Positions 401 to 30,498 of a stretch of DNA of 64,000 nt are shown here, piece after piece. The stretch spans positions 186,001 through 250,000 of the forward strand of contig NZ_JAFFJX010000004.1 of NCBI RefSeq assembly GCF_016924755.1, read 5' to 3'. This DNA is from Longitalea arenae. Its GTDB lineage: Bacteria; Bacteroidota; Bacteroidia; Chitinophagales; Chitinophagaceae. Position 1 is the stretch's first letter, and each line of letters begins with the position of its first letter. The notes under the pieces were generated by a model. It was not told the DNA's origin and searched no databases. It saw only the letters and a list, made by a program, of their open reading frames with translations. Made by a program: the position numbers and the translations under genes.

Positions 401-445
401 AAAAATAAAAAACCGGAAATGAAAACTATTGTCCACTTCCGGTTT
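401..445 (-). terminator. Rho-independent terminator of the peptide-export operon
   Basis: Read on the minus strand, a 9-bp perfect stem (AAACCGGAA paired with TTCCGGTTT, plus-strand 410-418 and 437-445) is followed by a T-rich run (complement of 401-410). It lies directly after the stop codon of the C39 ABC exporter at 465. Confidence 0.75.
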
Positions 446-464
446 CCTGTAAAAAATAACATTG

Positions 465-2729
465 TCAGCTTGCCTGAAGACTGTCAGCGCTTCCGTTCAT
501 TTCTTTCTTTATTCCATAAACCTGCTGCTCCCACAGGAGGGTGTACGCGCCTCCTTTCGCCAGTAAGGCGGCATGGCTTCCCTCCTCAACCACTTCGCCC
601 TGGTGCAGCACTACGATCTTATCGGCATTCATCACCGTGCCCAGCCTGTGTGCGATCAGTAAGATCGTTTTACCCGTTTTGCGCAAATCGCATAAGGCAT
701 TTTGAATATGTTGTTCAGATAATGAATCCAACGAGGAGGTGGCTTCATCCAGGATCAACAGCTCCGGTTCTTTATACAGGGCCCTGGCAATCGCAATGCG
801 CTGGCGTTGCCCACCCGACAGGTTCATCCCGTTCTCTCCAATATTGGTCATAAACCCGTCGGGCAATGCTTCAATAAATTCCAGGATACCCAACTGCCTG
901 CAGATGCTGATCACTTTCTTCATTTCCGGCTCGAATTCGCCCAATGCAATATTTTCAACAACGGACCCTGCAAAGAGGTGCACTTCCTGCGGTACCACAC
1001 TTACCAATGAACGCAAACTGGCCGGATGTATATACTTAATATCAAGTCCGTTGATCTGGATACTGCCCGATTGCAACGGATAGATATTTTGCATTAACGA
1101 TAAGAGGGTCGTTTTGCCACTCCCACTTTCTCCTACGATGGCGGTGATGGTTCCTTTGTCAATGCTCAGGTTCAATCCATTGAACACATTCACGCGGGTA
1201 CCATACCGGAAATGCACATTCTTAAAACAGATATCCCCCATCTGATCCCTGGTAAGCCTGGTGGTATTGGCGGAAGACTCTACTTCGAGGTCCATAATTT
1301 CAAACAGGCGATCGGCAGCAATGATGGCATCCTGCATTAATTTATTCATTCCAATAAGCGCTATTACCGGTCCTGTAAAATAACCCATCAGCGCATAAAA
1401 ACCTAACAGCTCCCCTGCCGTTAACTGGCGGTTCAGCACATAAACACTGCCGGCCCATAAGAGCACGACGGTAAACAAACCGGAAACAAGCTGTCCGCCA
1501 CTGCCTGCCAACAGCGAATTTTTACCGGAATGATAAACAGTCTGCAGCAACCGCACAAAGCGTGTTTCGGTCTTGATATTTGAATATTCCTCCAAGCCAA
1601 AACGTTTAATGGTGCCTATGGCATTCAGCGACTCCACGAGCTGCGCCTCCAATTCTGCGGAATTCTCCATCAGCTTGCGCTGGGTTCGCTTATTGAATTT
1701 ATTAGAAAAGTAATAGACCAGCGCATACAGCGGCACTACGGTGAATAAGATAAGTGCCAGTTTCCAGTAAGCCGTGAACATCAGTGCAAAGGAAAAAATG
1801 AGAATGAAGCCATTCACTGCCAGGTTAATGAGCACATCGTTCACAAAAACCCTGATCTTGACCGCGTCGTTCATGCGCGAAACAATTTCTCCCACGCGCA
1901 TGGTATCGAAGAACTGCTGCGGCAATCGCAATAAATGTTTATAATAACCCAGGATGAGCCGGGCATCTATTTGCTGGCCGGTTTTCATTGTTAATACTAC
2001 CTTGAAATAATTAATAATGATCTGTACCAGTAAAATGAATATCATCAGCAGGCTCATCAGGTTCAGCAGGTTGCGGTTGCCATCAGGCAAAACATAATCA
2101 ATGATCTTTTGTAAGTAAACAGATGTACAGAGCCCCAGGATCGTATATACCATGGCGCCCAGTATGATCTGTATCAGCATCGGGACATGCGGTTGCAAGA
2201 GCAGCCGGAAACGCTCAGCCACCGAAGTGCTTGCTTTTCCCGGTATAAAATGGTCGGCCGGCGCCAGCAATACCGCAATGCCCGTCCAGATATCTTTAAA
2301 CTCATCTGGTCGCATCAGCTCCATAGTCCCTTTGGCGGGGTCCATTACACGAATGCCTTTCGGCGAAGCTGCATACACTACCACATAATGATGCAGGCGC
2401 TGGTCAATGATCACATGCCCGATAACCGGATGCGGCAGCTTGTAGATACTTTCAAAAGCGCCTTTTACCGCTTTTGCAGAAAATCCAAGCCGGGCAGCTG
2501 CTTCTATCAATCCCAGCACATTGGTGCCCTTAAGATCTGTTCCTGCATATTGACGGATGCGGGCTATAGGAAGCTGCAGTCCATAAAATGCAGCAATGGA
2601 GGCCAGACAGGCCGCTCCGCAGTCTGTGAGATCATGCTGTTTAATGATATACCTGCGGCGCGGCTTCCACCAGCGGTTATGAATGGCCGTCTTTTTTGCA
2701 AACGGCGATGTATTTTGATCAGTGCTCAT
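465..2729 (-). CDS. Peptidase C39-containing ABC exporter (PCAT, double-glycine peptide exporter)
   Basis: This is a fused protease-exporter of the inner membrane that removes double-glycine leaders and pumps the peptide out. The N-terminal C39 peptidase (about residues 25-165) keeps the catalytic set: Cys37 in LTDCGAAC, His114 in HHYVVVY and Asp130 in VMDPAKG. A six-helix ABC transmembrane domain (about 185-460) follows. The ATPase has Walker A GESGSGKTT, signature LSGGQRQRIAIARAL, Walker B LLILDEATSSLD and the switch His in IAHRLG. The length of 754 residues is normal for SunT/LagD/NisT-C39 type exporters. Its start overlaps the end of the HlyD gene by 11 nt, indicating coupled translation. 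The likely substrate is the GG-leader peptide encoded at 3978-4133 in the same transcription unit. No modification enzyme (LanM, radical SAM, YcaO) is adjacent. Confidence 0.93.
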   Translation of the reverse strand: MSTDQNTSPFAKKTAIHNRWWKPRRRYIIKQHDLTDCGAACLASIAAFYGLQLPIARIRQYAGTDLKGTNVLGLIEAAARLGFSAKAVKGAFESIYKLPHPVIGHVIIDQRLHHYVVVYAASPKGIRVMDPAKGTMELMRPDEFKDIWTGIAVLLAPADHFIPGKASTSVAERFRLLLQPHVPMLIQIILGAMVYTILGLCTSVYLQKIIDYVLPDGNRNLLNLMSLLMIFILLVQIIINYFKVVLTMKTGQQIDARLILGYYKHLLRLPQQFFDTMRVGEIVSRMNDAVKIRVFVNDVLINLAVNGFILIFSFALMFTAYWKLALILFTVVPLYALVYYFSNKFNKRTQRKLMENSAELEAQLVESLNAIGTIKRFGLEEYSNIKTETRFVRLLQTVYHSGKNSLLAGSGGQLVSGLFTVVLLWAGSVYVLNRQLTAGELLGFYALMGYFTGPVIALIGMNKLMQDAIIAADRLFEIMDLEVESSANTTRLTRDQMGDICFKNVHFRYGTRVNVFNGLNLSIDKGTITAIVGESGSGKTTLLSLMQNIYPLQSGSIQINGLDIKYIHPASLRSLVSVVPQEVHLFAGSVVENIALGEFEPEMKKVISICRQLGILEFIEALPDGFMTNIGENGMNLSGGQRQRIAIARALYKEPELLILDEATSSLDSLSEQHIQNALCDLRKTGKTILLIAHRLGTVMNADKIVVLHQGEVVEEGSHAALLAKGGAYTLLWEQQVYGIKKEMNGSADSLQAS

Positions 2730-3879
2730 CAGGTATACGGTTAGGGTTTAGCCAATCGTCTGCTTTATCGAACAGCAACTGAAACAGGGTTCTGCGGGTA
2801 ACCAGGAACCGGGCCTGTACCGTCATTCCCTTTTTTATGATACCCTTGTATCCATTCTTCAACCGCAGTACCGGGTCATTGGTTTCACACCATACTTTAA
2901 ATAATGGCTGCCCTTCTCCCAAGTAAACATCCGGGGAAATAGATCTTACTTTACCGGTCACCATGCCCCAAACATTATAATCGAAGGCATCTATTTGCAT
3001 GCGCACCGCCATACCTTCGTGGATATACCCGATATTCTTAGGTGAAACATATATTTCTGCCAGCAGGCCTGAATCGGGGCTCACTTCACCGATCAGTTCA
3101 CCTGCCGTGAGCAGGCTGCCCGGAGCAATTCCTTTTAAATGCTGAATAAATCCAGTGGTGGGGGAAGAAATGGTGTACAGGTTCTGTTCTTCGGTATAAG
3201 CTGTATGGCGTGCCTGTACATCCTTTAACTGCATGTTCAGGGCAGTGAGCTCCGATTGCCATTTGTCGCGCTGTTGTGCTTTGAGCAATGACAATTCGCT
3301 TTGCGCGGTTCTATATGCTGCTTCAAACTTTTCAAACTCGGCGGTAGAGATAATTCTTTCCTGGTACAATTCTTTATAACGGTCGAAATTCTTACGGGCC
3401 ACATCCAGGCGGATGCTAATTTCACTGATCTTACTTCTATAAACGAGCTGTTCCTGTGTATATAATTTAGATCGCAACTGCTGGTTCCTGCCTGCCAGTA
3501 ATTGCTGCAGGTCCTGCTGTTGCCTCAATAACTCGTTCTTTTGCGCGATAACTGCACCCTGTTTATCGTTCACTGAGTTTGCCAATAATTGTATTAAAGG
3601 TGTGCCGGCGGTAACATGATCGTTTTCCCTGACAAGTACTTTTTCTACGGTAGCGGCTACGAGACTCCGTATTTCAGTCCGTTCCCGGGCCGACCGGAAA
3701 AGCCCACTACTTTTAACACTAATATCCACGCGAACGATGAACAGCAGGATAAAAGCTACAATAAACAAACCCAACAACAGCCAATACAAAACAAGGCTGC
3801 CATTCCGGTGATCGCGGTAATGCTTTTCAATATAAAATGAGGCGGCCGATGAAGGATATATCCGGTTTGACCCATGCAT
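2719..3879 (-). CDS. HlyD-family periplasmic adaptor (membrane fusion protein) of the peptide exporter
   Basis: This is the adaptor subunit linking the inner-membrane ABC exporter to an outer-membrane channel. It has one N-terminal membrane helix (about residues 28-50, LLGLFIVAFILLFIV), a lipoyl/barrel-sandwich half (about 65-110), a long coiled-coil hairpin rich in Gln, Leu and Lys (about 110-225), the second barrel half around TTGFIQHLKGIAPGSLL, and a beta-barrel domain ending near residue 365. That is the classic HlyD order. The 386-residue length fits adaptors paired with C39 exporters. The chosen ATG at 3879 is the only one giving a cytosolic tail before the helix; a second ATG four bases downstream is out of frame. 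No TolC-like gene is present, so the outer-membrane partner must be encoded elsewhere. Confidence 0.9.
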   Translation of the reverse strand: MHGSNRIYPSSAASFYIEKHYRDHRNGSLVLYWLLLGLFIVAFILLFIVRVDISVKSSGLFRSARERTEIRSLVAATVEKVLVRENDHVTAGTPLIQLLANSVNDKQGAVIAQKNELLRQQQDLQQLLAGRNQQLRSKLYTQEQLVYRSKISEISIRLDVARKNFDRYKELYQERIISTAEFEKFEAAYRTAQSELSLLKAQQRDKWQSELTALNMQLKDVQARHTAYTEEQNLYTISSPTTGFIQHLKGIAPGSLLTAGELIGEVSPDSGLLAEIYVSPKNIGYIHEGMAVRMQIDAFDYNVWGMVTGKVRSISPDVYLGEGQPLFKVWCETNDPVLRLKNGYKGIIKKGMTVQARFLVTRRTLFQLLFDKADDWLNPNRIPDEH

Positions 3880-3930
3880 GATTTATTGCTGATCTTATTA
3901 ACTGGTAAGCGTTAACATAAGTGATTGTGC

Positions 3931-3963
3931 AAATAGAGGGACAGCATCGCTATCCCTCTATTT
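3931..3963 (-). terminator. Intercistronic hairpin between precursor peptide and exporter genes (possible attenuator)
   Basis: There is a perfect 11-bp inverted repeat, AAATAGAGGGA with TCCCTCTATTT, and an 11-nt loop that can pair further (AGC/GCT). It sits 14 bp after the peptide stop codon and 51 bp before the HlyD start. Only three T residues follow on the minus strand, so it may be a leaky terminator or an mRNA-stabilising 3' hairpin rather than a full stop. Confidence 0.6.
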
Positions 3964-3977
3964 GGCAGGCAGCAACC

Positions 3978-4133
3978 CTACAGGCAAATGCCAATAGAAA
4001 GCTTCACTTTCACTTCAATACCGCCGCAGTCATCATCGTCGCAACGATCTTTGCAGCAGCTTGATCCTAACAGACCTAAGAGTCCACCATTTACTTCTGT
4101 CATTTCCTGGATGGTTAATTCTTGTACTTCCAT
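3978..4133 (-). CDS. Double-glycine-leader precursor peptide, Cys/Asp-rich core (51 aa)
   Basis: This short gene reads ATG (4133) to TAG (3978) with 51 codons. The first 17 residues, MEVQELTIQEMTEVNGG, match the leader consensus recognised by C39 peptidases: Leu at -12, Glu at -8, Met at -7, Val at -4 and GlyGly at -2/-1. Predicted cleavage leaves a 34-residue core. The core starts with a Leu/Gly-rich hydrophobic patch (LLGLLGSS), continues with a Cys/Asp cluster (CCKDRCDDDDC) and ends with an alternating charged/hydrophobic stretch (IEVKVKLSIGICL). It has five Cys, at core positions 9, 10, 14, 19 and 33. It lies directly upstream of the adaptor and the C39 exporter on the same strand. A secreted bacteriocin-like or signalling peptide is the inference; the acidic Asp4 run could also bind metal. 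I do not recognise a named family. Confidence 0.85.
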   Translation of the reverse strand: MEVQELTIQEMTEVNGGLLGLLGSSCCKDRCDDDDCGGIEVKVKLSIGICL

Positions 4134-4575
4134 GATTGATAAGTTAATGATTAAACACTATGCCTACTCTGTTCAAGGGTTTTCGGCATCGCCCTTTTTA
4201 ACCGGTCAAAATATGTATTAGCCGTTGCGTTCGGTCAGCAACAACTCATTTGATCAATAGGATCAGAAGATGGCATCGATAGGAACAAAAGGATGGATTA
4301 CAAAACGGGCTCTAATGGTGACAATCAGGGTCAGGCTTATCAATGCTTTAAAGGGATACATTTATGTCCTGCTAAAGGTATGCCATCATTCATTTTAAAG
4401 TTCTAACTGTAACAGATAATGATCAATGTTAAGAAATGAAAATAAAATTCCCAATCCGGGATGGAGAGAAGATAAAAACAGGTAGCAAATCAATGCTTTA
4501 ATGATACAGAGGTTAAGAACCTACACAAAACGCCCTCTATGTGTGACTATTTTTCAAAAAATGTTTTTTATATTA
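4134..4575 (-). other. 442-bp intergenic region upstream of the precursor peptide
   Basis: This AT-rich stretch should hold the promoter of the peptide-export operon. On the minus strand TATTTTG occurs near 4208-4216, one base short of the TAnnTTTG consensus, so no firm promoter call is possible. A 12-bp direct repeat, ATCAATGCTTTA, occurs at 4339-4350 and 4489-4500, exactly 150 bp apart, and could be a regulator site. I see no second leader-type peptide in the minus-strand frames. Confidence 0.4.
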
Positions 4576-6541: not shown

Positions 6542-6559
6542 GTTATACGCAAATTGAAC

Positions 6560-8665
6560 ATGCGACTGCTGTTTATGATATTGATACTTGCGCCGGCGGC
6601 GTCTATGGTAACACGGGCCCAAAATGTCGACAGCCTGAAAAAAGCATTATTTACCGCAAAAGATACGAACGAAATTGATTGCCTCAACGCTTTGAGTAAT
6701 GCCTATATACTGCTTGAAAACAAAGATTCTGCTAAATATTATGCTGTCCGGGCCGGTGATCAGGCAAAAGCGTTGAATTACATGTATGGCCTTGCCGTAA
6801 GCCGCTGCCGCCTGTCACAAATTGCCAAACATTTTGATGACGATTTCATCAACTCGGAAAGATGGGGCAAAGAATCGCTTTACTGGTATGAAAAAACAGC
6901 CAAAAAAGAAGGCATCAGTACCGTGTATTACTATCTTGTTTACTCCATATTTGCACAAAGCCGGTTCGATGAAGCCATCTATTATGCAGAAAAAAGATAT
7001 GCCCTTGTTAAAGCGGAAAACAGTTCGTTGGGAAAAATTGAAGCCTTAACCTGGTTGTCGGCTATTTACCGGCAAACCGGGAATTATGAGAAAAGTTTCC
7101 TGATGGCGCGGGAAAGTTATGACTTTGCCAGTGCAGCAAAAAACAAACACTGGATATCGACCACATTATATCATATTGCCCAATTATACGCCCATATAGA
7201 AGACTATCCGAACGCTTTGATCTATTTCAGAAGGGTTCTTCAGATGGATGATGACCATATCAGGAATGAACGGATAAGAGGCGATATAGATATCTGGCTT
7301 AAAATGGAATTTGCAGAGGTTTTCAGCCATTTGAAGCAGTTTGATTCTGCCTGGTATTATTACAGGCTATTCAAACCAACGAAAGACAAGTCAGCTTATT
7401 TACGGGTGTACTGGATCAGTACCGGTGAATGTTATCTTTTACAAAAAGATTATCACAATGCCCTGAAGAACTTTGAACTTGGCCTGGCCGGACATATAAA
7501 ACTCAACGACCGGAATGAGATCATGCGGGCGCTGCTCGATATTGGGAAAACCTATCTGGCCCTGGAGAACAATGAAGCCGCTTTAGAGTATGGACGGAAG
7601 GGATTAGCCATTGCGCTGGAAACCAGGGCCAAACAATTTATCCGGGATGGGTTCCTGATCCTGTCCACGGCCTTCGACCGCATGCAACAGGCAGACAGCT
7701 CAAACTTCTATTACAGGAACTATATTTACTGGAAAGAATCTATAGCCAATGATCAGCTTAAAGCAAAATTTACAGCCTACCGCTACGAGGAGCAGATAAA
7801 ACTGCTTGACAAAGAAAACCAGTTACAGCAACAGCTATTGAAACAATCATCGGAGCATAAAAAAATGCTCACCATTGTCATAGGGCTGCTCTTACTGTTC
7901 GGCATTATTTTTATCAGGTTCATCATGCTGAAAAGAAAGATCCTGCAAAATGAACTGCAGATCCAGAAGCTTGAAAATGACAGGAAGCAGGCTGCATTTC
8001 AACAGCAGGCCACTGAGTTGGAAATGCAGGCCCTGCGCGCCCAGATGAACCCTCACTTTATCTTTAACTGCCTGAGCTCCATCAATAGCTTTATCCTGAA
8101 AAATGAATCGGAAGCGGCTTCTGATTACCTCACCAAATTCGCCCGGCTGATCAGGATGGTGATGCACAACTCGAAAGAAGCAGTGATCACCTTGGAAGAT
8201 GAGCTGGAGATGCTGCAACTGTACCTGGATATGGAAAGGCTCCGCTTTAAAAAAGCTTTTGATTATACAATTACTTTTAAAAATGAAGTAGACGCTTCGT
8301 TCATCTACATTCCTCCGCTTCTGTTGCAACCTTTTGCAGAGAACGCCATCTGGCATGGGCTGCTGCATAAAGAAGGGAAAAAACATCTGAGCATAGCATT
8401 CAGTGAAGAAAATAACCTCTTACATTGTTCCATTGTTGATAATGGCATCGGCCGGGAAGCGGCAACAACAGTGGAAGGCAAATCGCCTGAAAAACAAAAA
8501 TCCATGGGTTTGAAAATCACCCGGCAAAGACTGGCCTTATTCAATGGCGTTAAAGATCTCCAGAATGTACTTGCCATTGAGGACCTGTTCGACCAAGATG
8601 GACGTGCTACCGGTACCAGGGTGCAGCTCACCATCCGCATAAAAAGGAACACGGAACCCGTTTGA
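6560..8665 (+). CDS. TPR-containing LytS-type sensor histidine kinase
   Basis: I chose the ATG at 6560; a TTG two codons upstream is possible but less likely. The product (701 aa) has a signal peptide, a periplasmic TPR array (about residues 30-400) that presumably senses a protein or peptide, a coiled coil, one membrane helix (LTIVIGLLLLFGIIFIRFIML), another coiled coil, and the His_kinase domain with His499 in QMNPHFIFNCLSS. The ATPase domain contains PFAENAIWHG, DNGIG and GLKITRQRL. This layout is typical for Bacteroidota LytS-like kinases paired with LytTR regulators. The partner regulator starts 31 bp after the stop codon, so they form an operon. A shared promoter element suggests autoregulation. 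Confidence 0.93.
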   Translation: MRLLFMILILAPAASMVTRAQNVDSLKKALFTAKDTNEIDCLNALSNAYILLENKDSAKYYAVRAGDQAKALNYMYGLAVSRCRLSQIAKHFDDDFINSERWGKESLYWYEKTAKKEGISTVYYYLVYSIFAQSRFDEAIYYAEKRYALVKAENSSLGKIEALTWLSAIYRQTGNYEKSFLMARESYDFASAAKNKHWISTTLYHIAQLYAHIEDYPNALIYFRRVLQMDDDHIRNERIRGDIDIWLKMEFAEVFSHLKQFDSAWYYYRLFKPTKDKSAYLRVYWISTGECYLLQKDYHNALKNFELGLAGHIKLNDRNEIMRALLDIGKTYLALENNEAALEYGRKGLAIALETRAKQFIRDGFLILSTAFDRMQQADSSNFYYRNYIYWKESIANDQLKAKFTAYRYEEQIKLLDKENQLQQQLLKQSSEHKKMLTIVIGLLLLFGIIFIRFIMLKRKILQNELQIQKLENDRKQAAFQQQATELEMQALRAQMNPHFIFNCLSSINSFILKNESEAASDYLTKFARLIRMVMHNSKEAVITLEDELEMLQLYLDMERLRFKKAFDYTITFKNEVDASFIYIPPLLLQPFAENAIWHGLLHKEGKKHLSIAFSEENNLLHCSIVDNGIGREAATTVEGKSPEKQKSMGLKITRQRLALFNGVKDLQNVLAIEDLFDQDGRATGTRVQLTIRIKRNTEPV

Positions 8666-8696
8666 TAAATTAATGCATGCCTTAATAAAGCAATAT

Positions 8697-9449
8697 ATGA
8701 TCAATGCCATTATAATAGACGATGAACCCTATTGCTGCGAGAGCCTCACCACATTACTGCACCGTTATTGCCCGCAGGTAAACATAGCTGACACCTGTTT
8801 TAGCGGAGCAAGCGCCCTGCAGGCTATAAAGGTGAAAGAACCACAGCTGGTATTTTTAGACATTGAAATGCCGCAGATGAATGGCTTTGAGCTGCTGCAA
8901 AAATTACCTGAAATAAAGTTTCAACTGGTATTTACCACCAGCTATGATCAATATGCCATAAAAGCCATCAGGTTCAGCGCCCTGGATTATTTGCTAAAAC
9001 CTATCGACAGGGATGAACTGCAAAGAGCCGTTCAAAAAGCCATTCAGCACGTTCAACAACCATTGCCACAGCAATTTGAGATCCTGCTGCAAAAAATGAA
9101 GGCGCCCGCAATGACCATTCAAAAAATGGCATTGCCTACCGTGGAAGGTTTGCAAATGATAGCAGTAGACTCCATCCTCAGCTGCTGTTCGAACAGTAAT
9201 TATACCACCCTCCTCACAAAGGATAAACAAAAGATCATTGCATCGCGCACCCTGAAAGAAATAGAGGAAATGCTTGAAGAATATTCCTTTCTTCGCGTGC
9301 ACCATTCTTTTCTTGTAAACCTCAACGAGGTTGACAAATATATTAAGGGAGAAGGCGGCTATCTTACCATGAGCGATGGTTCAACAGTGCCTGTTTCGCG
9401 CAGCAGAAAAGAATTGTTGCTGAAAAAATTACAACCGCATAAACATTAA
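8697..9449 (+). CDS. LytTR-family response regulator
   Basis: The protein has a receiver domain (about residues 1-120) with acidic pocket DDE at 8-10, phosphoacceptor Asp55 in LVFLDIEMP, Thr in FTTSYD and Lys in YLLKPI. A LytTR DNA-binding domain (about 145-245) follows, with RTLKEIEE, FLRVHHSFLVNL and VPVSRSRKELL. I start at 8697 because MINAIIIDDEP is the usual N-terminus of the family; an in-frame ATG at 8673 would add eight residues. It is the output partner of the kinase immediately upstream. LytTR domains bind short direct or inverted repeats, and candidate sites lie at 6494 and 9530. Confidence 0.93.
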   Translation: MINAIIIDDEPYCCESLTTLLHRYCPQVNIADTCFSGASALQAIKVKEPQLVFLDIEMPQMNGFELLQKLPEIKFQLVFTTSYDQYAIKAIRFSALDYLLKPIDRDELQRAVQKAIQHVQQPLPQQFEILLQKMKAPAMTIQKMALPTVEGLQMIAVDSILSCCSNSNYTTLLTKDKQKIIASRTLKEIEEMLEEYSFLRVHHSFLVNLNEVDKYIKGEGGYLTMSDGSTVPVSRSRKELLLKKLQPHKH

Positions 9450-9510
9450 TATGGTGCCGATGATCTATCCGGTTTGCCACCGTAAAGCCCTTTGCTCCCT
9501 GGTTAAGGTC

Positions 9511-9577
9511 AATTATCCTGTATAACCGTCAATGGCTCACTGGCGTTATCGAACGCTATTCCATCAAACTATTTTTG
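9511..9577 (+). promoter_or_regulatory. Promoter of the secreted PepSY-like gene, with the same dyad element as the HK/LytTR promoter
   Basis: AATTATCCT (9511) and CAATGGCTCACTG (from 9530) precede a perfect -7 box TATTTTTG (9570-9577) by the same 40-bp offset seen upstream of the kinase gene. The block contains a dyad: CGTCAATG, centre GCT, then CACTGGCG, whose complement differs from the left arm at two positions. The gene start is 42 bp after the -7 box. Confidence 0.55.
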
Positions 9578-9618
9578 CTCCATTATTCATTTCACCAGTC
9601 AAATTAAAAAGTATAGCC

Positions 9619-10146
9619 ATGAAAAAATGCATTTCTATTGGTCTGGTATTAGCTTTACTGACCACTGTATCGAACAGTACCTTTGCGCAGCTTGCCTTTA
9701 ATAACAAAAAGCTGAGGCCGGCATTTTCTTTTGAAGCCCATAAGTTACCACCCTACGAATCGAAAGATGCTGCAAACATTCATCCAAAAGCAACCGAGAA
9801 CTTTATCACAAGCTATGAAAATGCAACGGATGCAAAATGGACCGTGTTGAAGAACGGCGAATCACTGGTTCATTTCTACAGCGATGGTATTGAAACGAAG
9901 GTGTTTTATACCAGGAAAGGGAAACATGTAGCCACGATCCGCTATTATTCTGAACACACACTGCCAGCTGACGTGCGGCACCTGGTAAAATCCGTTTATT
10001 ATGACTTCAGCATTTTTTTGGTGATCGAGGTCACGCTTAATAATCAAACTGCGTACCTGGTAAAAATGGAAGATAGTAACCGTTTTAAAACGATCAAAGT
10101 AATAGATGGGGAAATGGATGTAATGGAAGATCTGGAAAAATTATAA
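9619..10146 (+). CDS. Secreted PepSY-like protein (DUF2874-type)
   Basis: I use the ATG at 9619, which gives a clean signal peptide (MKKCISIGLVLALLTTVSNS, cleavage after TFA) and a mature part of about 150 residues. The TTG-initiated longer frame has no support. The mature protein carries the Bacteroidota PepSY-like pattern: NFITSYENATDAKWTVLKNG, then a strand giving a Tyr/Phe-containing product (HFYSDGIETKVFYTRKGK), a TLPADVRHLV helix and strands ending in YLVKMED. The role of these small periplasmic proteins is unknown. A paralogue with the same layout lies at 62503. The promoter element shared with the kinase/LytTR operon makes it a probable target of that system. Confidence 0.75.
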   Translation: MKKCISIGLVLALLTTVSNSTFAQLAFNNKKLRPAFSFEAHKLPPYESKDAANIHPKATENFITSYENATDAKWTVLKNGESLVHFYSDGIETKVFYTRKGKHVATIRYYSEHTLPADVRHLVKSVYYDFSIFLVIEVTLNNQTAYLVKMEDSNRFKTIKVIDGEMDVMEDLEKL

Positions 10147-10162
10147 GGTTGATCAAAAAATG

Positions 10163-10193
10163 ACTGTGCCACGTTTTTAAACGGTGGCACAGT
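10163..10193. terminator. Strong hairpin after the PepSY-like gene
   Basis: A perfect 10-bp stem, ACTGTGCCAC (10163-10172) with GTGGCACAGT (10184-10193), starts 16 bp after the stop codon. No long T run follows on the plus strand, so termination efficiency is uncertain. Confidence 0.6.
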
Positions 10194-10269
10194 TAAAACT
10201 TTAAGCAGGCAGGCCCGGTTGGTAGAAGATAAGCGGTACGGCCTTACCTTTGCCAATCAAATTTCTTAC

Positions 10270-11376
10270 ATGAGTTCGCTGCTTAAAGACCTTTATTCTC
10301 CCGCATTTTACGACCGCCTGTCAAATTCATTTGTTCATACGATCGAAGGATTTGATAAAAGGAAATTCAAACGTTTGCTGTTGAACGAGGACTTTGAATC
10401 GATGGAGCTGAAGGAACGCATGAAGTTTACCGCGCGCTGTATGCATGCCTTTATGCCGCAAACCTTTGGACCGGCTAGCATTAAAACGCTGTTTGCCATA
10501 GTTGACCGGTGGCGGAAACATGAATTTCCCCGGGGCGGACTGGAACATATGTTCCTGCCGGATTATGTGGAAACCTTTGGCCTGAACAACTACGACAATT
10601 CCGTCAGGGCATTGGAATATATCACTCAGTATGTAAGTTGTGAGTTTGCGGTGCGGCCCTTTTTGCTTCGATATTATCAACCTATGCTGGCGCAGATGGT
10701 GCGCTGGTCAACACACGAAAGCGAAGCGGTGCGCCGGCTGGCCAGTGAAGGCTCGCGCCCCCGCCTGCCCTGGGCACTTCGGGTACCGGCCCTTGTGGAG
10801 GACCCCGCTGTATTACTTCCGATCCTGGAGAATTTAAAGAACGACCCCTCAGAAACGGTCCGTCGCAGTGTGGCCAACAGCCTCAATGATATTGCGAAAG
10901 ATCATCCCGACCTAGTCATTACGCTTGCCCGTAAATGGCAAGGGATCAACCCCCAGGTAGATGCTGTGATCAAACATGGAAGCCGGACGCTATTGAAAAA
11001 AGGCCATACTGGCATTCTGGCGCATTATGGGTTGGAAAGTCAGCATATAGAGCTGACCGCCCTGGAAGTGCTAACACCGGTTGTGAAGATCGGCAACAGC
11101 TTACGGTTCCGGTTCAATGTAATTAATAATGGGAAAGCGGCGCAGCCGGTGCGTATTGAATATGGTATTTATTACCTGAAAGCGAACGGTACGCTCGCCA
11201 GGAAAGTATTTAAGATCAGTGAACGCCTGTTTCAGCAGGGAGAAGCTGTCACTGTCGAACGGAGCCAGTCCTTTAAACTGATCACAACAAGGACCTTCTA
11301 CCCCGGCGCCCACCAGCTCTCCGTCATTGTTAATGGAGCAGAAAAAGCAATAGCCGGTTTTACGCTCAGGAAATAG
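10270..11376 (+). CDS. DNA alkylation repair protein (AlkC/AlkD-type HEAT-repeat glycosylase)
   Basis: The start ATG at 10270 (MSSLLKDLYSP) is preferred over an upstream TTG. The 368-residue product is all-helical for its first 265 residues, with HEAT-like helices (for example RRLASEGSRPRLPW, PSETVRRSVANSLNDIAKDHP). This is the signature of AlkC/AlkD alkylpurine glycosylases, which excise cationic N3/N7-alkyl purines without base flipping. A C-terminal beta-rich segment (about 270-368) resembles the immunoglobulin-like domain known from the AlkC branch, so AlkC is the better assignment. It stands alone between a hairpin and the HopJ-like gene 46 bp downstream. Confidence 0.85.
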   Translation: MSSLLKDLYSPAFYDRLSNSFVHTIEGFDKRKFKRLLLNEDFESMELKERMKFTARCMHAFMPQTFGPASIKTLFAIVDRWRKHEFPRGGLEHMFLPDYVETFGLNNYDNSVRALEYITQYVSCEFAVRPFLLRYYQPMLAQMVRWSTHESEAVRRLASEGSRPRLPWALRVPALVEDPAVLLPILENLKNDPSETVRRSVANSLNDIAKDHPDLVITLARKWQGINPQVDAVIKHGSRTLLKKGHTGILAHYGLESQHIELTALEVLTPVVKIGNSLRFRFNVINNGKAAQPVRIEYGIYYLKANGTLARKVFKISERLFQQGEAVTVERSQSFKLITTRTFYPGAHQLSVIVNGAEKAIAGFTLRK

Positions 11377-11422
11377 TTATTTTTGCCGGGAAGGACTCAC
11401 ATTTTAAATACATAGTATCTCA

Positions 11423-11764
11423 ATGAAAGAACAACTCACTATCCTGATCAACAAATTAAAAAACAATGCAATCACATTCAAAGAGGTGATTGAATTCATA
11501 GAAAGCTATTATCAGCATCAGCCCACGGCCTTTAAAAATGGCGAAGTGTATAATGAAGCAACGCGGAACCAGGGCAGCGCTAAGGTATTTTCTTTCGCAA
11601 AACTAAATGACCTGAGCAAGGAAGATACACTTTACCTGTTTGCCGAGCACTATCAATCGGTATTGAATACGCCGGATGCATCAGATCACCAAAACATCAG
11701 GCAGTTCATGAAACATGGCTGGCCCGGACTGGTCTTTGAGGGAGAGGCGCTGGTAGCAAAATAA
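11423..11764 (+). CDS. HopJ-type effector-like small protein
   Basis: This 113-residue soluble protein has the HopJ pattern: TFKEVIEFIESYYQHQPTAF, FKNGEVYNEA, NQGSAKVFSFAKL and the DASDHQNIRQFMKHGWPG segment. Its length matches the family. HopJ was named from a Pseudomonas type III effector, but homologues are widespread in free-living bacteria without type III secretion, and none is seen here. A cytosolic housekeeping role is more likely than secretion; the actual activity is unknown. It probably shares a transcript with the upstream glycosylase and ends at a strong terminator. Confidence 0.85.
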   Translation: MKEQLTILINKLKNNAITFKEVIEFIESYYQHQPTAFKNGEVYNEATRNQGSAKVFSFAKLNDLSKEDTLYLFAEHYQSVLNTPDASDHQNIRQFMKHGWPGLVFEGEALVAK

Positions 11765-11777
11765 ATGAACGAATGTC

Positions 11778-11812
11778 AAAAGGCCATGGATCCGGATTCT
11801 ATGGCCTTTTTT
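11778..11812. terminator. Bidirectional terminator between hopJ-like and marR-like genes
   Basis: A perfect 10-bp stem, AAAAGGCCAT (11778-11787) and ATGGCCTTTT (11801-11810), has A and T runs at the two ends. It serves the plus-strand gene ending at 11764 and the minus-strand gene ending at 11835. Confidence 0.85.
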
Positions 11813-11834
11813 ACAAGATCATCATTGTTGTTTA

Positions 11835-12269
11835 TTAACTGCCATTTAAGATCTGCATGATCTCCTGCATATGTTTCACCAGTTCTTTTTGCTTGCTGGC
11901 GGCCAATGGCGTTATCAGCGCATCTACCTGGTCGTTTGACGCACGGTTTAAGGTATGAAAGACTTTAAGGCCTTTTTCCGACAATGCCAGTAAGGATACC
12001 CGGGCGTCGGTAGAGAAATTCTCTTTGTTGATAAGCCCGTTCTTTTCAAATTTCTTCAGGATCCGGCTAACATAGCCTTTATCCATACGCAAGGTAGAAA
12101 CGATCTGTGAAGCGCTTATTTGTTTTCCGGTATATATTTCATAGAGAATGCGTGCTTCCGCCAGCGAATAATCACTGTCGAGCAGGTGACCATCCAGTAA
12201 ACCGATCAATCGGGTGTAGAACCGGTTAAATTCCCGGATGTCCTGAATCAATTTGGTCTTATCCTTCAT
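11835..12269 (-). CDS. MarR-family transcriptional regulator
   Basis: The 144-residue protein has a winged helix-turn-helix of MarR type: LAEARILYEIYTGKQISASQIVSTL, recognition helix region MDKGYVSRILKKFEKNGLI, wing STDARVSLLALSEKGLKVF, with dimerisation helices at both ends. It lies 60 bp downstream of the acetyltransferase gene on the same strand, and a 7-bp hairpin (TGTTGCC/GGCAACA, 12305-12321) sits in the gap. MarR and GNAT domains also occur fused in one polypeptide in other bacteria, which supports a functional pair. A repressor of its own operon is the likely role; the ligand is unknown. Confidence 0.9.
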   Translation of the reverse strand: MKDKTKLIQDIREFNRFYTRLIGLLDGHLLDSDYSLAEARILYEIYTGKQISASQIVSTLRMDKGYVSRILKKFEKNGLINKENFSTDARVSLLALSEKGLKVFHTLNRASNDQVDALITPLAASKQKELVKHMQEIMQILNGS

Positions 12270-12329
12270 GTACTTTGATGCTTTAGAATGTGTATAAGCT
12301 TTATTGTTGCCATCGGCAACATTCTGAAC

Positions 12330-12830
12330 TTAAGCCAGGTGCAGGTCATACCGCCTTTCTACAAGCAGTTTGCCAAAGGCCCTGGACGGCTTTTCTTCGG
12401 TAAGTGTAAAGCCAAACCGGGTGTATAAGCTAATGGCAGCATGCTGTTCATCGGTGGTCCACAGGTAAGCATCTTTCACAGCACGTTGTTTCATGAACGC
12501 GATAAACTCTGACATCAATTTTTTTCCCAGGCCAACGCCTCTGTACTCCGGTAAAAAGATAAAGTACCGCAATTGTATGGCATGCTGCCGGTGCTGGGCA
12601 ACCAGGGCGCCTATGATCCGGCCATGATGTTCACAGATCCAGATGCGGTCCAAGGCCGGGTCATATTGATGGGCAAGTTCTCCCAGTCCGCCTAAAACAT
12701 ATGCTTCAAAGTTTAACCCATAGCCGCATTCCCTGGCATACAGCTCGCCATGCATATAGGCTATATAACCCAGATCGCCCGGAAGCAGCTGGCTCCTTAC
12801 TGTAATATCATTCAATGCAATTGTCTTCAT
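12330..12830 (-). CDS. GNAT-family N-acetyltransferase
   Basis: This single-domain GNAT fold has 166 residues. The acetyl-CoA loop is EYRGVGLGKKLMSEF, matching the R/QxxGxG/A consensus. It is preceded by the strand IQLRYFIFLP and followed by AYLWTTDEQHAAISLYTRFGFT, the usual C-terminal motif. The acceptor substrate cannot be inferred. The gene is first in a two-gene unit with the MarR regulator, an arrangement equivalent to known MarR-GNAT fusions. Confidence 0.88.
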   Translation of the reverse strand: MKTIALNDITVRSQLLPGDLGYIAYMHGELYARECGYGLNFEAYVLGGLGELAHQYDPALDRIWICEHHGRIIGALVAQHRQHAIQLRYFIFLPEYRGVGLGKKLMSEFIAFMKQRAVKDAYLWTTDEQHAAISLYTRFGFTLTEEKPSRAFGKLLVERRYDLHLA

Positions 12831-12874
12831 AATATACCCCCTGTATTATTATTACCAGTTCCCCTTGTTTAATA

Positions 12875-12905
12875 CAAAGTAAATAAAATAGGTTGACTTT
12901 GGCAA
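12875..12905 (-). promoter_or_regulatory. Candidate promoter of the GNAT-MarR operon
   Basis: On the minus strand TTG (complement of 12903-12905), a 20-bp spacer, then TTACTTTG (complement of 12875-12882) match the Bacteroidota -33/-7 layout with one mismatch in TAnnTTTG. The gene start is 44 bp downstream. Confidence 0.4.
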
Positions 12906-13474
12906 CTAATTGTCCTTCCTGCCTGTGTCAGCTGATCATAGGAAACAGGTTTCCTGTTCCCTATTACTATATTATAAATTTTTGCTATTCGCGTTCTTGC
13001 TTTCCTGTAGCCAAAACCGATGATAGCCGGTGATATAGATTGCAAAATCCTGCATGTATAACATCATTGCACATTAAAAACCGCATAAATTGCGTTATTG
13101 CCTTGTTATTGTGCCACTTTTTGCGTTAAACAGCATTATATTTGAAAATAACCACTACGAACTGTTTATGCTTAGAAAGAAGCGTCAGGCACATCTATTA
13201 TACCAGGCAAACCTGCATACCAGGGGTTTATTATGCCTGCTCAGCCACCCGTGTTTTTTAATCATCAACAACATTCCAGGGCTTCCACCCCATGATCAAG
13301 CAGGGCACCCGTATGTCGATCCGGGCATTCAGGCACTATAGGCGCCTGCACGGAACCAGGGCATTTACAGATCAGGACTTATGAAAACAATGCATCTGAA
13401 CCGTTCAATATTAGTATTGAACTGAAAAACCTTTCCGTATTCAACCATCGATTCATTGACCCAAAAAAACTGTT
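12906..13474 (+). promoter_or_regulatory. Long non-coding region upstream of the first SusC gene, with a -7-like box at 13137-13144
   Basis: No convincing gene is seen in these 569 bp. TATATTTG at 13137-13144 is a perfect TAnnTTTG match, but no -33 box is present at the expected distance. If used, it would give a leader of about 325 nt before the SusC ATG at 13475. An 83-codon plus-strand frame inside (13090-13341) shows no family features. Confidence 0.35.
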
Positions 13475-16400
13475 ATGAGAAAATTCATGAGAAAATGGAG
13501 GCTTTTTAGTTTGATCATGATCATTGTGCTCGACATGATCTCGAAGAACCTGATAGCACAAGGAGTTCCTCTCAGCGGAACGGTGCTTTCAGAAGAAGGT
13601 GCACCGCTGCCGGGTGTAACGGTCAGTGTAAGCGGCACCGACCGGGCGGCGCTCACAGATATCAAAGGCAAATTCACCATTACAGCCAATGAAGGCGCCA
13701 TGCTGGAATTCAGCCATGTAGGCTATGTTAAACAAAGGGTAAAAGCCAGCGCCGGCATGGAAATACGTCTATCACTCAGCGCATCAGGCCAGATGCAGGA
13801 CGTGGTGGTTACGGCCATGGGTATTAAAAAGGAAAGAAAGGCATTGGGATATTCGGTCACCGAATTAAATGCGCAGGAACTGATGAAGAATAAAAATACC
13901 AATGTGGTTAACTCCCTGGTTGGTAAAGTGCCCGGAGTAAACATTACCCAGTTCAGCGGTGCAGCCGGCGCCGGGGCGTCTATCACGATCCGCGGTGGTA
14001 ACTCTACGTCGGATGGCAGGCAAAACCAGCCATTATTTGTTGTAGATGGCGTCATTTACGACAATTCAACTTCTGTCACCGGTAATTCCGCTACCGATGG
14101 CGCCACCCGCAGCAATACCACATACTCGAACCGGGTTATGGATATTAACCCCGAAGATATTGAAAGCCTGTCGGTGCTGAAAGGGGCTGCTGCTGCTGCA
14201 TTGTATGGATCAAGAGCAGCAGACGGCGTGGTGATCATCACTACCAAGAAAGGCGCGGAAGGTACGGTAAAAGTGAATGTAGCCAGTAAAGTGATCAGTT
14301 CCTGGGCGAATAAATTGCCCGAAGCACAAACCAGATTTGGGAACGGTTCCTACGCCAGCAACGGGGTCTTCAACGATATCACGTATAACTCCTGGGGACA
14401 GGCCATTGAACCTACAGAAACCGTGTACGATAATATAGGTGATTTCTTTCAGCACGGCATGGTGTATGATAACAATGTAAACGTATCGGGCGGCACCAAG
14501 AACAGCGCTTTCTTTTTATCGGGTTCTAATTTTGATCAAACGGGCATCGTTCCCAACACCGGGTTTAAGAAAACGACCTTTCGTTTTAACGGCGAACAAA
14601 AATATGGCCGTTTGACCCTGAATGCGAACGTCGCTTATTCCATTGCGAAAACTGATAGAACACTCACTACAGCCGGCTTATATAGCGGTGGCGGCAATGG
14701 CGCCATGGGCGCTGTATACAGCTGGCCCCAGGTATTCGACATGAAGCAGTATGAGAACATCGACGGTACCCAGTATCGCAAGTTCGCCGGAACACTTCCC
14801 CTGGAAACCGATACAGACAATCCTTACTGGATCATTAATAAAGACAAATTAACTTCCCAGACCAAACGTATTACCGCAGGCATTAACGGTAATTATAAAA
14901 TTGCCAGCTGGTGGGATATCATTGCCCGTTTAGGCTATGATCAGTACAACACAAATGATTACACGTATATTGCCCCGGGTTCTGCTGTGATCCCCCTGTA
15001 CCAGAACGGCCGCCTGAGCAAAAACCTGAACAGCTATACGTTCATCACAACCACCGTGATGAGTAATTTTCACAAAACATTCGGCGCTTTTGAAACCCGC
15101 CTGATGTTGGGAAGCACTACCGAAAATACCGAATGGGTAAACCAGAATCATTGGGGACACAATTTTATAACTGCCGGTACCATAAGCTTCGGCAACATCG
15201 CAAACACCAATCAATTCTTCAAGGATGCCACCACCCAAAAACGGCTGGTAGGCGCCTATGGTGAATTTGGTATTTCTTATAAAGACATTGCTTATCTCAC
15301 GGCAACCGGACGCAATGACTGGTCTTCTACATTGCCTTTAAACAACAGGTCCTATTTTTATCCTTCCATCAGCGGTTCATTGGTGTTTACAGAACTGTTG
15401 CCTCAAATGCCCCATCTTTCCTTTGGTAAAGTGCGGGCAAGCTGGGCGCAGGTTGGTAAAGACGCCAATCCCTATGCCACCCTTACTTATGTCAATGATC
15501 CGATCATCGTTGGTTCTTTTACCGGCATCGGTAATCAATACACCAGCGGTAATCCTTTTTTGAAGCCTGAAATTCAGAATTCCTGGGAAGTGGGCGGCGA
15601 GCTGCGATTCCTGAATAATCGTATTGGCCTGGACTATACTTATTATCACAGCCAGACAAAAAATCAGATCGCCCAACCGCGTTTGTCCAATGCGAGCGGT
15701 TATATTTTGACGTCTATTAACTCAGGTTCCGTTATTAACAAGGGAATGGAAATAGCCCTTACCGGTAAAGCAATCACAAGAAAGGATTTCGCATGGGATG
15801 TAATGCTGAATTTCTCCTATAACAAAGGCCGTTTGGGCGCTTTCCTGCCAGGCGTAGCTTATTTCTATCCTACAGACGCTCAATTTGGAACCGTAAAAGC
15901 AGCTTCCATTCCGAACGGTGGCTATTTCCTGGGCATGACCGGTACCACCTACTTGCGGGAAACAGATGCGGATAAAAAGGAAATTTCGAATGGACGCTAC
16001 CAGGTAGATCCTACCACCGGATTATACAAACTGAACACCAATAACCCCATCGTAGGTAACCGGGAACCCAGTTTCATCGGGGGCTTTAACAATACGTTCC
16101 GTTACAAGAAATTCATCTTATCGTTCCTGCTCGATTTTCGTAAAGGCGGAGATGTGTATAACGGAACTGAATATGCCATGGTCATAAACGGTTTAAGTAA
16201 AAGAACCCTGGAGAATGACCGTCAATCAGTGACCGTAAGTGGCGTCAACAGTCAGACCGGCGCTGATTTTACGCAAACCTATAATGCAGATCAGTCATAT
16301 ACCATTAACGGAACAACCTATTCCGGCAGGCATATGATCCAACAGTACTGGGCAAACTACGCAGCAAATTCCATGAATTTTATTACTTCCGTGAATTGGG

Positions 16401-30126: not shown

Positions 30127-30129
30127 AAG

Positions 30130-30498
30130 TGGAGGTGACCGGATTCGAACCGGTGTCCAAACATATCCTTCAAAAGCTTTCTACATGTTTATTCCGGCAT
30201 TATTTGTCGGGAAGTAACAGGAACCGGACGAACCAATCACTTCCTTAGCTGAATAGTCTTTTGTAACCGGCACAGCCTACGGTTACAGCATTCTGTATTT
30301 GTTTTGAGTCGGCGGCGGGGCGTGGTAACAGAACGACCTGCCCGGCGGCCCTAATGACTACTTAATCACTGATTAGGCAGCCATGGCAAATTGAGTATTG
30401 CCATTTAATGTTTGAATATTCAGATTTACGTGCTAATTATCCAACGCACGACATGCTTACACCTTCAAAGATCTACGCTGTCAAAACCATACACCCCC
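30130..30498 (-). ncRNA. ssrA: Transfer-messenger RNA (tmRNA)
   Basis: This is a one-piece tmRNA of 369 nt. The 5' end GGGGGTG (complement of 30492-30498) pairs with CACCTCC near the 3' end, and the next bases, GGTTTTGACAGCG, are the conserved D-loop-like region. The 3' tRNA-like part has T-arm ACCGG-TTCGAAT-CCGGT. CCA is not encoded. The tag frame, read on the minus strand around 30373-30402, is GGC AAT ACT CAA TTT GCC ATG GCT GCC TAA, i.e. GNTQFAMAA. The Gly resume codon is inferred from other Bacteroidota tags. tmRNA rescues stalled ribosomes with SmpB and adds this degradation tag. A promoter lies about 120 bp upstream, so the 5' end must be made by RNase P. Confidence 0.93.

Follow-up and report, generated by a model that had tools for sequence, protein, structure and literature searches.

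A conserved double-glycine peptide export unit with a DUF805b RNA leader in Longitalea arenae

The 64,000-nucleotide stretch of the Longitalea arenae genome analysed here (contig NZ_JAFFJX010000004.1, positions 186,001 to 250,000; hereafter the window) carries on its minus strand a gene for a small double-glycine (GG) precursor peptide, followed by genes for a HlyD-family periplasmic adaptor and an ATP-binding cassette (ABC) exporter with a C39 peptidase domain, and preceded by a DUF805b cis-regulatory RNA. Judged from its sequence and from its relatives, this is a real, conserved unit for GG-peptide export, led by a regulatory RNA, and a variant of a known export type. A first-pass annotation of the same DNA had already proposed the peptide and its exporter; that observation was confirmed and the interpretation attached to it is partly supported, while the DUF805b leader, a hairpin that follows the peptide gene and a wider peptide family with a Leu/Gly motif after the GG were absent from it. 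GG peptides exported by a dedicated C39 transporter have been studied extensively in Gram-positive bacteria and Enterobacterales and less so in Bacteroidota, and the unit opens to direct experiment both the role of GG peptides that lack immunity genes and the signal to which the DUF805b RNA responds. We consider the association with the RNA and the apparent lack of an immunity gene to be the parts worth following.

The precursor gene lies at 3978..4133 (minus strand; 51 residues, stop codon within the coordinates), between the DUF805b element upstream and the HlyD gene downstream, and encodes the leader MEVQELTIQEMTEVNGG followed by the core LLGLLGSSCCKDRCDDDDCGGIEVKVKLSIGICL. As first described, the 17-residue leader (4083..4133, minus strand) carries Leu-12, Glu-8, Met-7 and Val-4 and ends in Gly-2/-1 (Gly16-Gly17), and the 34-residue core (3981..4082, minus strand) contains five Cys and an Asp4 run; the core is arranged as LLGLLG, a Cys/Asp cluster and an alternating stretch, IEVKVKLSIGIC. 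In LahT150 the residues at -4, -7 and -12 sit in a hydrophobic groove and pockets, Glu-8 being dispensable (PMC6363468). Since Leu-12, Met-7 and Val-4 of the precursor occupy these pocket positions, the leader appears suited to C39 recognition and cleavage. A strict GG-leader pattern, applied to ATG-initiated open reading frames (ORFs) of 30-130 residues, matched this ORF alone in the 64 kb, against a mean of 0.083 matches per first-order Markov sequence of the same size (60 trials). Family models had little to say about the peptide: the Pfam scan returned no family, the NCBIfam scan only a sub-threshold match of residues 4-18, that is, of the leader, to TIGR03949 (class IIb bacteriocin, lactobin A/cerein 7B; 13.0 bits, cut-off 21.5), TIGR01847 (bacteriocin leader, cut-off 15.7 bits) was not listed at E 1, and a plasmid search with the peptide gave no match.

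Downstream on the same strand, and overlapping each other by 11 nucleotides, are the genes for the adaptor (2719..3879, minus strand; 386 residues) and the exporter (465..2729, minus strand; 754 residues, with the C39 domain at about 2253-2651). The exporter contains the Pfam domains Peptidase_C39 (113 bits), ABC_membrane and ABC_tran, passes TIGR01193, a model for peptide cleavage and export ABC transporters (544.4 bits, cut-off 523.85), and aligns over residues 25-736 with PCAT1 (PDB 4ry2; E 6.7e-172). C39-like domains that have lost the Cys-His-Asp triad do not cut; here the triad is intact, as previously noted, with Cys37, His114 and Asp130 falling in the PCAT1 triad columns, and the ATPase motifs are present. 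The adaptor is a HlyD_3 protein in Pfam (58.3 bits, cut-off 22.2), its score against TIGR01843 (149.3 bits) lying under the cut-off of 208.65. The operon contains no TolC-type channel gene, and 31 Pfam OEP (TolC-type) domain matches exceed the cut-off elsewhere in the genome; at the Terrimonas ferruginea locus the exporter is followed by a 437-residue protein that looks TolC-like by eye. Export by C39 cleavage is well supported.

At E 1e-100 the exporter was matched in 8 of 59 genomes searched, own included (its own, two of the nine other genus members and five of the family), a patchy distribution that covers 3 of the 10 genus genomes, one of the seven without a match being only 61% complete. 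HlyD, searched at 1e-60, was matched in 40 of 394 family genomes, own included. The first-pass annotation had proposed looking for a conserved small ORF upstream of homologous HlyD/C39 pairs, and one is present at each of the eight Chitinophagaceae places where HlyD scores above 450 bits (the window, Longitalea luteola, Niastella populi, T. ferruginea, Filimonas zeae and genomes G137, G145 and G298): a GG-leader ORF directly upstream on the same strand, its stop codon 23-101 nucleotides from the HlyD start. By a looser GG pattern, 0.008 ORFs would be expected to end in a given 250-nucleotide stretch of Markov sequence. For each strand of 64 kb this pattern matches 2.1 ORFs in Markov sequences, compared with 5 on one strand of the real window and 1 on the other, so that it is weak alone and the placement ahead of HlyD bears the argument. 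The T. ferruginea peptide, missed by the first GG pattern, was found in the ORF list and by the looser one.

Other searches extend this picture in part. Related HlyD in Nitritalea (locus L041) is preceded by three GG peptides of similar look, and for several of the lower-scoring exporters GG peptides of other kinds, often larger and rich in Gly and Leu, occur elsewhere in the fetched neighbourhood, none being found there in the remaining cases. Family searches with the peptide alone reached real loci outside the genus in G137, G298, G215 and G145; the remaining matches outside the genus, which were not each inspected, look like chance by score and place. A scan of the whole collection confirmed no relative, yet it missed the L. 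luteola (90% identical) and N. populi (57%) peptides contained there; because it overlooked peptides that were present, its negative is uninformative, and HlyD was used as the query instead.

Comparison with the L. luteola ortholog indicates purifying selection on the peptide ORF, both on its leader and on its core. The two genes differ by 14 synonymous changes (32.5 sites) and 7 non-synonymous ones (120.5 sites), giving a ratio of non-synonymous to synonymous rates (dN/dS) of 0.094 for the whole ORF, 0.087 for the core and 0.104 for the leader; against the N. populi peptide the ratio is 0.32. Together with a three-codon in-frame indel among the orthologs, these values, small as the underlying numbers are, fit a translated gene.

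What is kept among the relatives is chiefly the leader. In an alignment of 12 peptides (nine from Chitinophagaceae and the three from Nitritalea) only Met1, Glu5, Leu6, Glu10, Asn15, Gly16 and Gly17 are invariant; just after the GG most peptides carry a motif of Leu and Gly (LLGLLG or LLGGLLGG, for example), and the remaining core is not reliably alignable. The first-pass annotation had laid weight on the odd number of Cys and the acidic cluster, a weight they do not bear: the window peptide has five Cys, that of L. luteola six and that of N. populi three, and the nine other aligned relatives have none. Since Cys number varies in this way, these features define no class, and five Cys with Asp4 are a local trait, the window-type Cys/Asp core being found within the genus only. 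The window cluster, CCKDRCDDDDC, has CCKDRCCDDDC as its L. luteola counterpart, and N. populi retains Cys26, Cys27 and Cys50 and has an Asp-bearing stretch in place of the Lys-bearing one. Ten of the relatives' peptides (nine of the family and one of another exporter clade; one family peptide and two of Nitritalea were omitted, L041 being represented by its third peptide alone) were scanned against NCBIfam and Pfam. TIGR01847 was passed by the peptide of G137, scanned without its first Met (18.6 bits), and by L080 of the other exporter clade (16.3 bits); none of the ten reached the TIGR03949 cut-off, the N. populi peptide scoring 20.6 against 21.5, and all of their Pfam matches, PF10439 among them, were below cut-off.

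The DUF805b element (RF02914) lies at 4161..4196 on the minus strand, 27 nucleotides upstream of the peptide start codon. It scores 46.5 bits against a gathering threshold of 35.6 (E 5.5e-12), exceeds that threshold in the whole-window scan too, and shares with RF02914 the conserved GAAAA and GAGTAGG blocks; what differs is that it leads GG-peptide operons here. Among the ten loci scanned, the element also exceeded the gathering threshold ahead of the peptides of L. luteola and N. populi, the second peptide of G298 and the third of Nitritalea. A GAGTAGG block was found upstream of 11 of the 12 close-family peptides, the exception being the first of G298, and in none of the 10 upstream regions of the other exporter clade, one of which offered only 85 nucleotides (22 regions examined in all; 6 of the 11 positives were recognised by sequence alone). 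Loci of that clade (L031, L077 and L080) have hydrophobic GG peptides without the DUF805b block, and several of their upstream regions share, by eye, a motif around GGTTAGGTAA. Just upstream of the element, at 4200-4207 of the window, is a palindrome-like sequence, GACCGGTT (GACCGGTC in L. luteola and TCCGGTC in N. populi), a possible operator.

Beyond this locus, DUF805b is widespread. The L. arenae genome has 8 places over the cut-off and 11 at E 0.01 (a control set was matched in two archaea, not over the cut-off), and a further 32 matches at E 1e-7 come from seven relatives. Behind 38 of these elements (8 own and 30 of the 32), within 8-67 nucleotides, there follow 25 Sec-type ORFs, 6 GG-type and 5 others, with none in 2 cases, and 28 of the ORFs have at most 150 residues. 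By comparison, among 45 non-overlapping window ORFs of at least 100 residues, a floor that lowers the count of small genes in this control, Sec-type ORFs number 18, those of at most 150 residues 9, and 1 is both; Sec and GG types were assigned throughout by crude patterns and not by a signal-peptide predictor. In these eight Chitinophagaceae genomes most DUF805b-led genes show an export-type start and small genes are frequent among them, so the medium is a place to look for their products. Across the class, 106 of 295 genomes, own included, carry DUF805b at E 1e-8. At 29 loci of best matches, one per genome, the next ORF was labelled Sec in 15, GG in 2 and other in 11, with none in 1, and 10 closed ORFs have at most 150 residues. 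Among the class-wide Sec labels are membrane proteins, including three that are rhodopsin-like, and of the two ORFs labelled GG one encodes a 305-residue DUF2589 protein and no GG peptide. The export bias behind DUF805b in Chitinophagaceae is no general rule.

Several of the genes behind DUF805b deserve mention in their own right. One of the rhodopsin-like proteins (L157) is a 249-residue ORF matching Bac_rhodopsin (154 bits), the other two (L158 and L174) being alike by sequence, all with gaps of 18-20 nucleotides. Small Cys peptides with a GG or similar motif directly follow the element at L136, L147, L149 and L171; they have 66 residues in two related genomes, 65 residues and four Cys in L. 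luteola, and 48 residues in a class member. At ten further loci (L109, L111-L115, L120, L121, L127 and L129) the element leads small peptides with Sec-type starts, of which, among those scanned, four (L109, L114, L115 and L120) matched DUF6520 below cut-off.

Covariation supports an H-type pseudoknot in DUF805b, in which GCC before GAAAA would pair with GGC after GAGTA. All three pairs can form in 36 of the 38 elements, the first being G-C in 31, A-T in 3, C-G in 2 and unpaired in 2; two pairs of this helix have changed on both sides and one is invariant. Taking this helix and that of the Rfam model together over the 38 elements (36 distinct), 89.9% of cells are paired and covariation is 0.469, against 0.132 in shuffled alignments and at most 0.115 in slid versions, although the alignment includes orthologs and the independent events are fewer than the cells. 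The word DUF805b was not found in the literature searched; the motif probably stems from the 224-RNA study, and the pseudoknot or the target set may already have been described.

A second RNA feature lies between the peptide stop codon and the HlyD start, where a terminator- or attenuator-like stem-loop occupies 3930..3964 on the minus strand. For the 58 nucleotides at 3920-3977 the folding energy is -29.3 kcal/mol (z -6.05, 200 shuffles), and in L. luteola one pair is altered on both sides (GGGA/TCCC to GGAA/TTCC). Long hairpins, judged outside the window by minimum-energy fold alone and unlike in sequence between genera, follow 11 of the 12 peptide genes, the exception being the first of the two G298 peptides. 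Such a hairpin would suit a partial terminator, the peptide being made in excess of the exporter.

The first-pass annotation had also reported no maturation or immunity gene. In a BLASTP comparison of the eight loci (E 1e-6, ATG ORFs of at least 35 residues) HlyD and the C39-ABC exporter are common to all, the peptides being too divergent for that search, and no conserved immunity or modification gene was found beyond the unit, which supports that statement, with the limit that a fast-changing or locus-specific gene would be missed. Other ORFs found at more than one locus overlap exporter or HlyD in other frames or are flanking genes of genus members only, and one flanking ATPase-like gene (L035, 2273-3403) resembles the exporters at 26-31% identity. 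One candidate immunity protein, a membrane protein past the exporter end (L035, 5481-6347, extending to window position 346), was rejected as chromosomal context: L. luteola and N. populi have it too, and in N. populi it stands apart from the operon, adjoining a gene that looks ThuA-like.

These observations suggest the following course. The GG leader, by its sequence, fits the pocket of C39 domains like that encoded in the same operon; the exporter very probably cuts after Gly17, and the 34-residue core very probably leaves through HlyD and one of the genomic TolC-type channels, its Cys probably being oxidised outside the cytoplasm. Expression may be set by the DUF805b pseudoknot with which the mRNA would begin, and the hairpin behind the peptide gene may halt many transcripts, yielding more peptide than exporter. 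The last step is the weakest and a guess: outside the cell the core may act in competition, as microcins or Cdz do, its Leu/Gly-rich start possibly entering or coating membranes and the rest changing by genus. A competition peptide of microcin or Cdz type, served by a three-gene type I secretion unit, is our leading guess for the whole, with a probability of about 0.45. In its favour we count the G137 peptide passing TIGR01847, the patchy exporter distribution, the Leu/Gly motif after the GG, the GG ORFs upstream of HlyD at all eight loci, the triad and PCAT1 alignment, the purifying selection, the 31 OEP domain matches and the hairpins.

Several points weigh against a competition peptide. The core is anionic (net charge -2 by letter count), and many pore-forming bacteriocins are not; the structure model is uninformative (mean predicted local distance difference test, pLDDT, 45.7). 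Since DUF805b precedes many unrelated genes across the class, the RNA says little about the function of the peptide. No shared immunity gene was detected by the eight-locus BLASTP comparison described above, and class II microcins are described with an immunity gene (PMC9746304) and Cdz requires CdzI (PMC5380434), although immunity genes are also said to be hard to detect by homology (PMC9746304).

Several described systems resemble the unit. It shares with class II microcin export (microcin V, CvaAB-TolC) the small precursor with a GG or GA leader, the C39 ABC exporter with its triad, the membrane fusion protein and TolC-type channels encoded in the genome (PMC9746304). It differs from these systems, which have a cognate immunity gene near the precursor, in that none was found here (a locus-specific one being possible), in its Bacteroidota host, in having the peptide as the first of three genes and in its RNA leader; the core had no match in the Pfam, NCBIfam and plasmid searches, a dedicated comparison with microcins not having been made. 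With Cdz of Caulobacter (CdzABCDI) it shares a leader ending in G[G/A/S], a type I exporter and its adaptor, small Gly-rich peptides among the family members and exporters more conserved than peptides (PMC5380434). The window peptide nevertheless departs from three of the four Cdz sequence features listed there: the precursor has 51 residues against 60-151 in the Cdz-like set, the core offers only Gly20-x3-Ser24 in place of a glycine zipper with Pro or a charged residue at its flanks and none inside, and the peptide has a hydrophobic end (LSIGICL) and bears Cys, unlike Cdz-like proteins. PCAT1 and LahT exporters share the nearly whole-length alignment, the triad and the logic of the leader pocket, whereas the window system is Gram-negative, has HlyD and includes no modification enzymes in the unit.

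Apart from competition, it is conceivable, though distinctly less likely, that the peptide is exported in the same manner and is non-toxic, serving at the surface or in the matrix for sticking or biofilm. EbfG1-4 of Synechococcus elongatus are GG-motif small proteins exported with the C39 transporter PteB and have a biofilm role (PMC4997328), a precedent showing that such GG peptides need not be toxins; that system is cyanobacterial and has a four-gene ebfG set. The missing immunity gene at eight loci, the Gly/Leu-rich, alternating cores, which suit aggregation, and the predominance of export-type starts behind DUF805b in the eight Chitinophagaceae genomes would agree with a surface or matrix role, but the core is short, at 34 residues, and varies among genera beyond what would be expected of a structural protein. 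A broader proposal, that DUF805b, a compact pseudoknot RNA, controls a set of small exported Chitinophagaceae peptides, Sec- and C39-routed, and that the window peptide belongs to an undescribed GG family with its own exporter and without immunity gene, acting as a surface peptide or signal and not as a toxin, we regard as doubtful.

A role as extracellular signal, detected by a sensor, seems unlikely for the peptide. GG peptides do act as signals in Gram-positive bacteria, and genes that look by eye like a histidine kinase and a response regulator lie at 6554-9449 on the plus strand; however, no ORF of this region is shared with the fetched flanks of the other seven loci, for which reason the pair was rejected as receptor, and the comparison revealed no other receptor gene that accompanies the operon from locus to locus. 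Metal binding by the Cys/Asp core, for capture or defence, would account for the CCKDRCDDDDC cluster and its L. luteola counterpart and is improbable, given that little of the cluster survives in N. populi (three Cys and an Asp-rich run), that the nine other aligned peptides have no Cys and that the unit has no metal gene. Finally, an untranslated ORF, its DNA conserved merely as regulatory sequence, would agree with the strong conservation of the surrounding DNA also, but is rendered very improbable by the preponderance of synonymous changes over far fewer sites, the in-frame indel and the GG-leader ORFs at the equivalent place in eight loci.

A few further features were recorded. Behind the exporter, at 407..448 on the minus strand, there is a terminator-like stem-loop with a 17-pair stem and a T run, identified by consensus match only; the same scan found 7 sites against 5.7 expected, and a scan for sigma-70 type promoters gave 10 matches against 10.4 expected, no excess over chance. 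A transfer-messenger RNA (131.8 bits) was found at 30127-30498 on the minus strand of the window. The genome has a second C39 place (L034, contig C34:18000-36000), which at 8021-14877 is probably a modified-peptide cluster: by eye it contains radical SAM/SPASM-like, glycosyltransferase-like and LanC-like ORFs, and a 110-residue C39 ORF there ends in a stop codon and is followed by a separate ABC transporter ORF.

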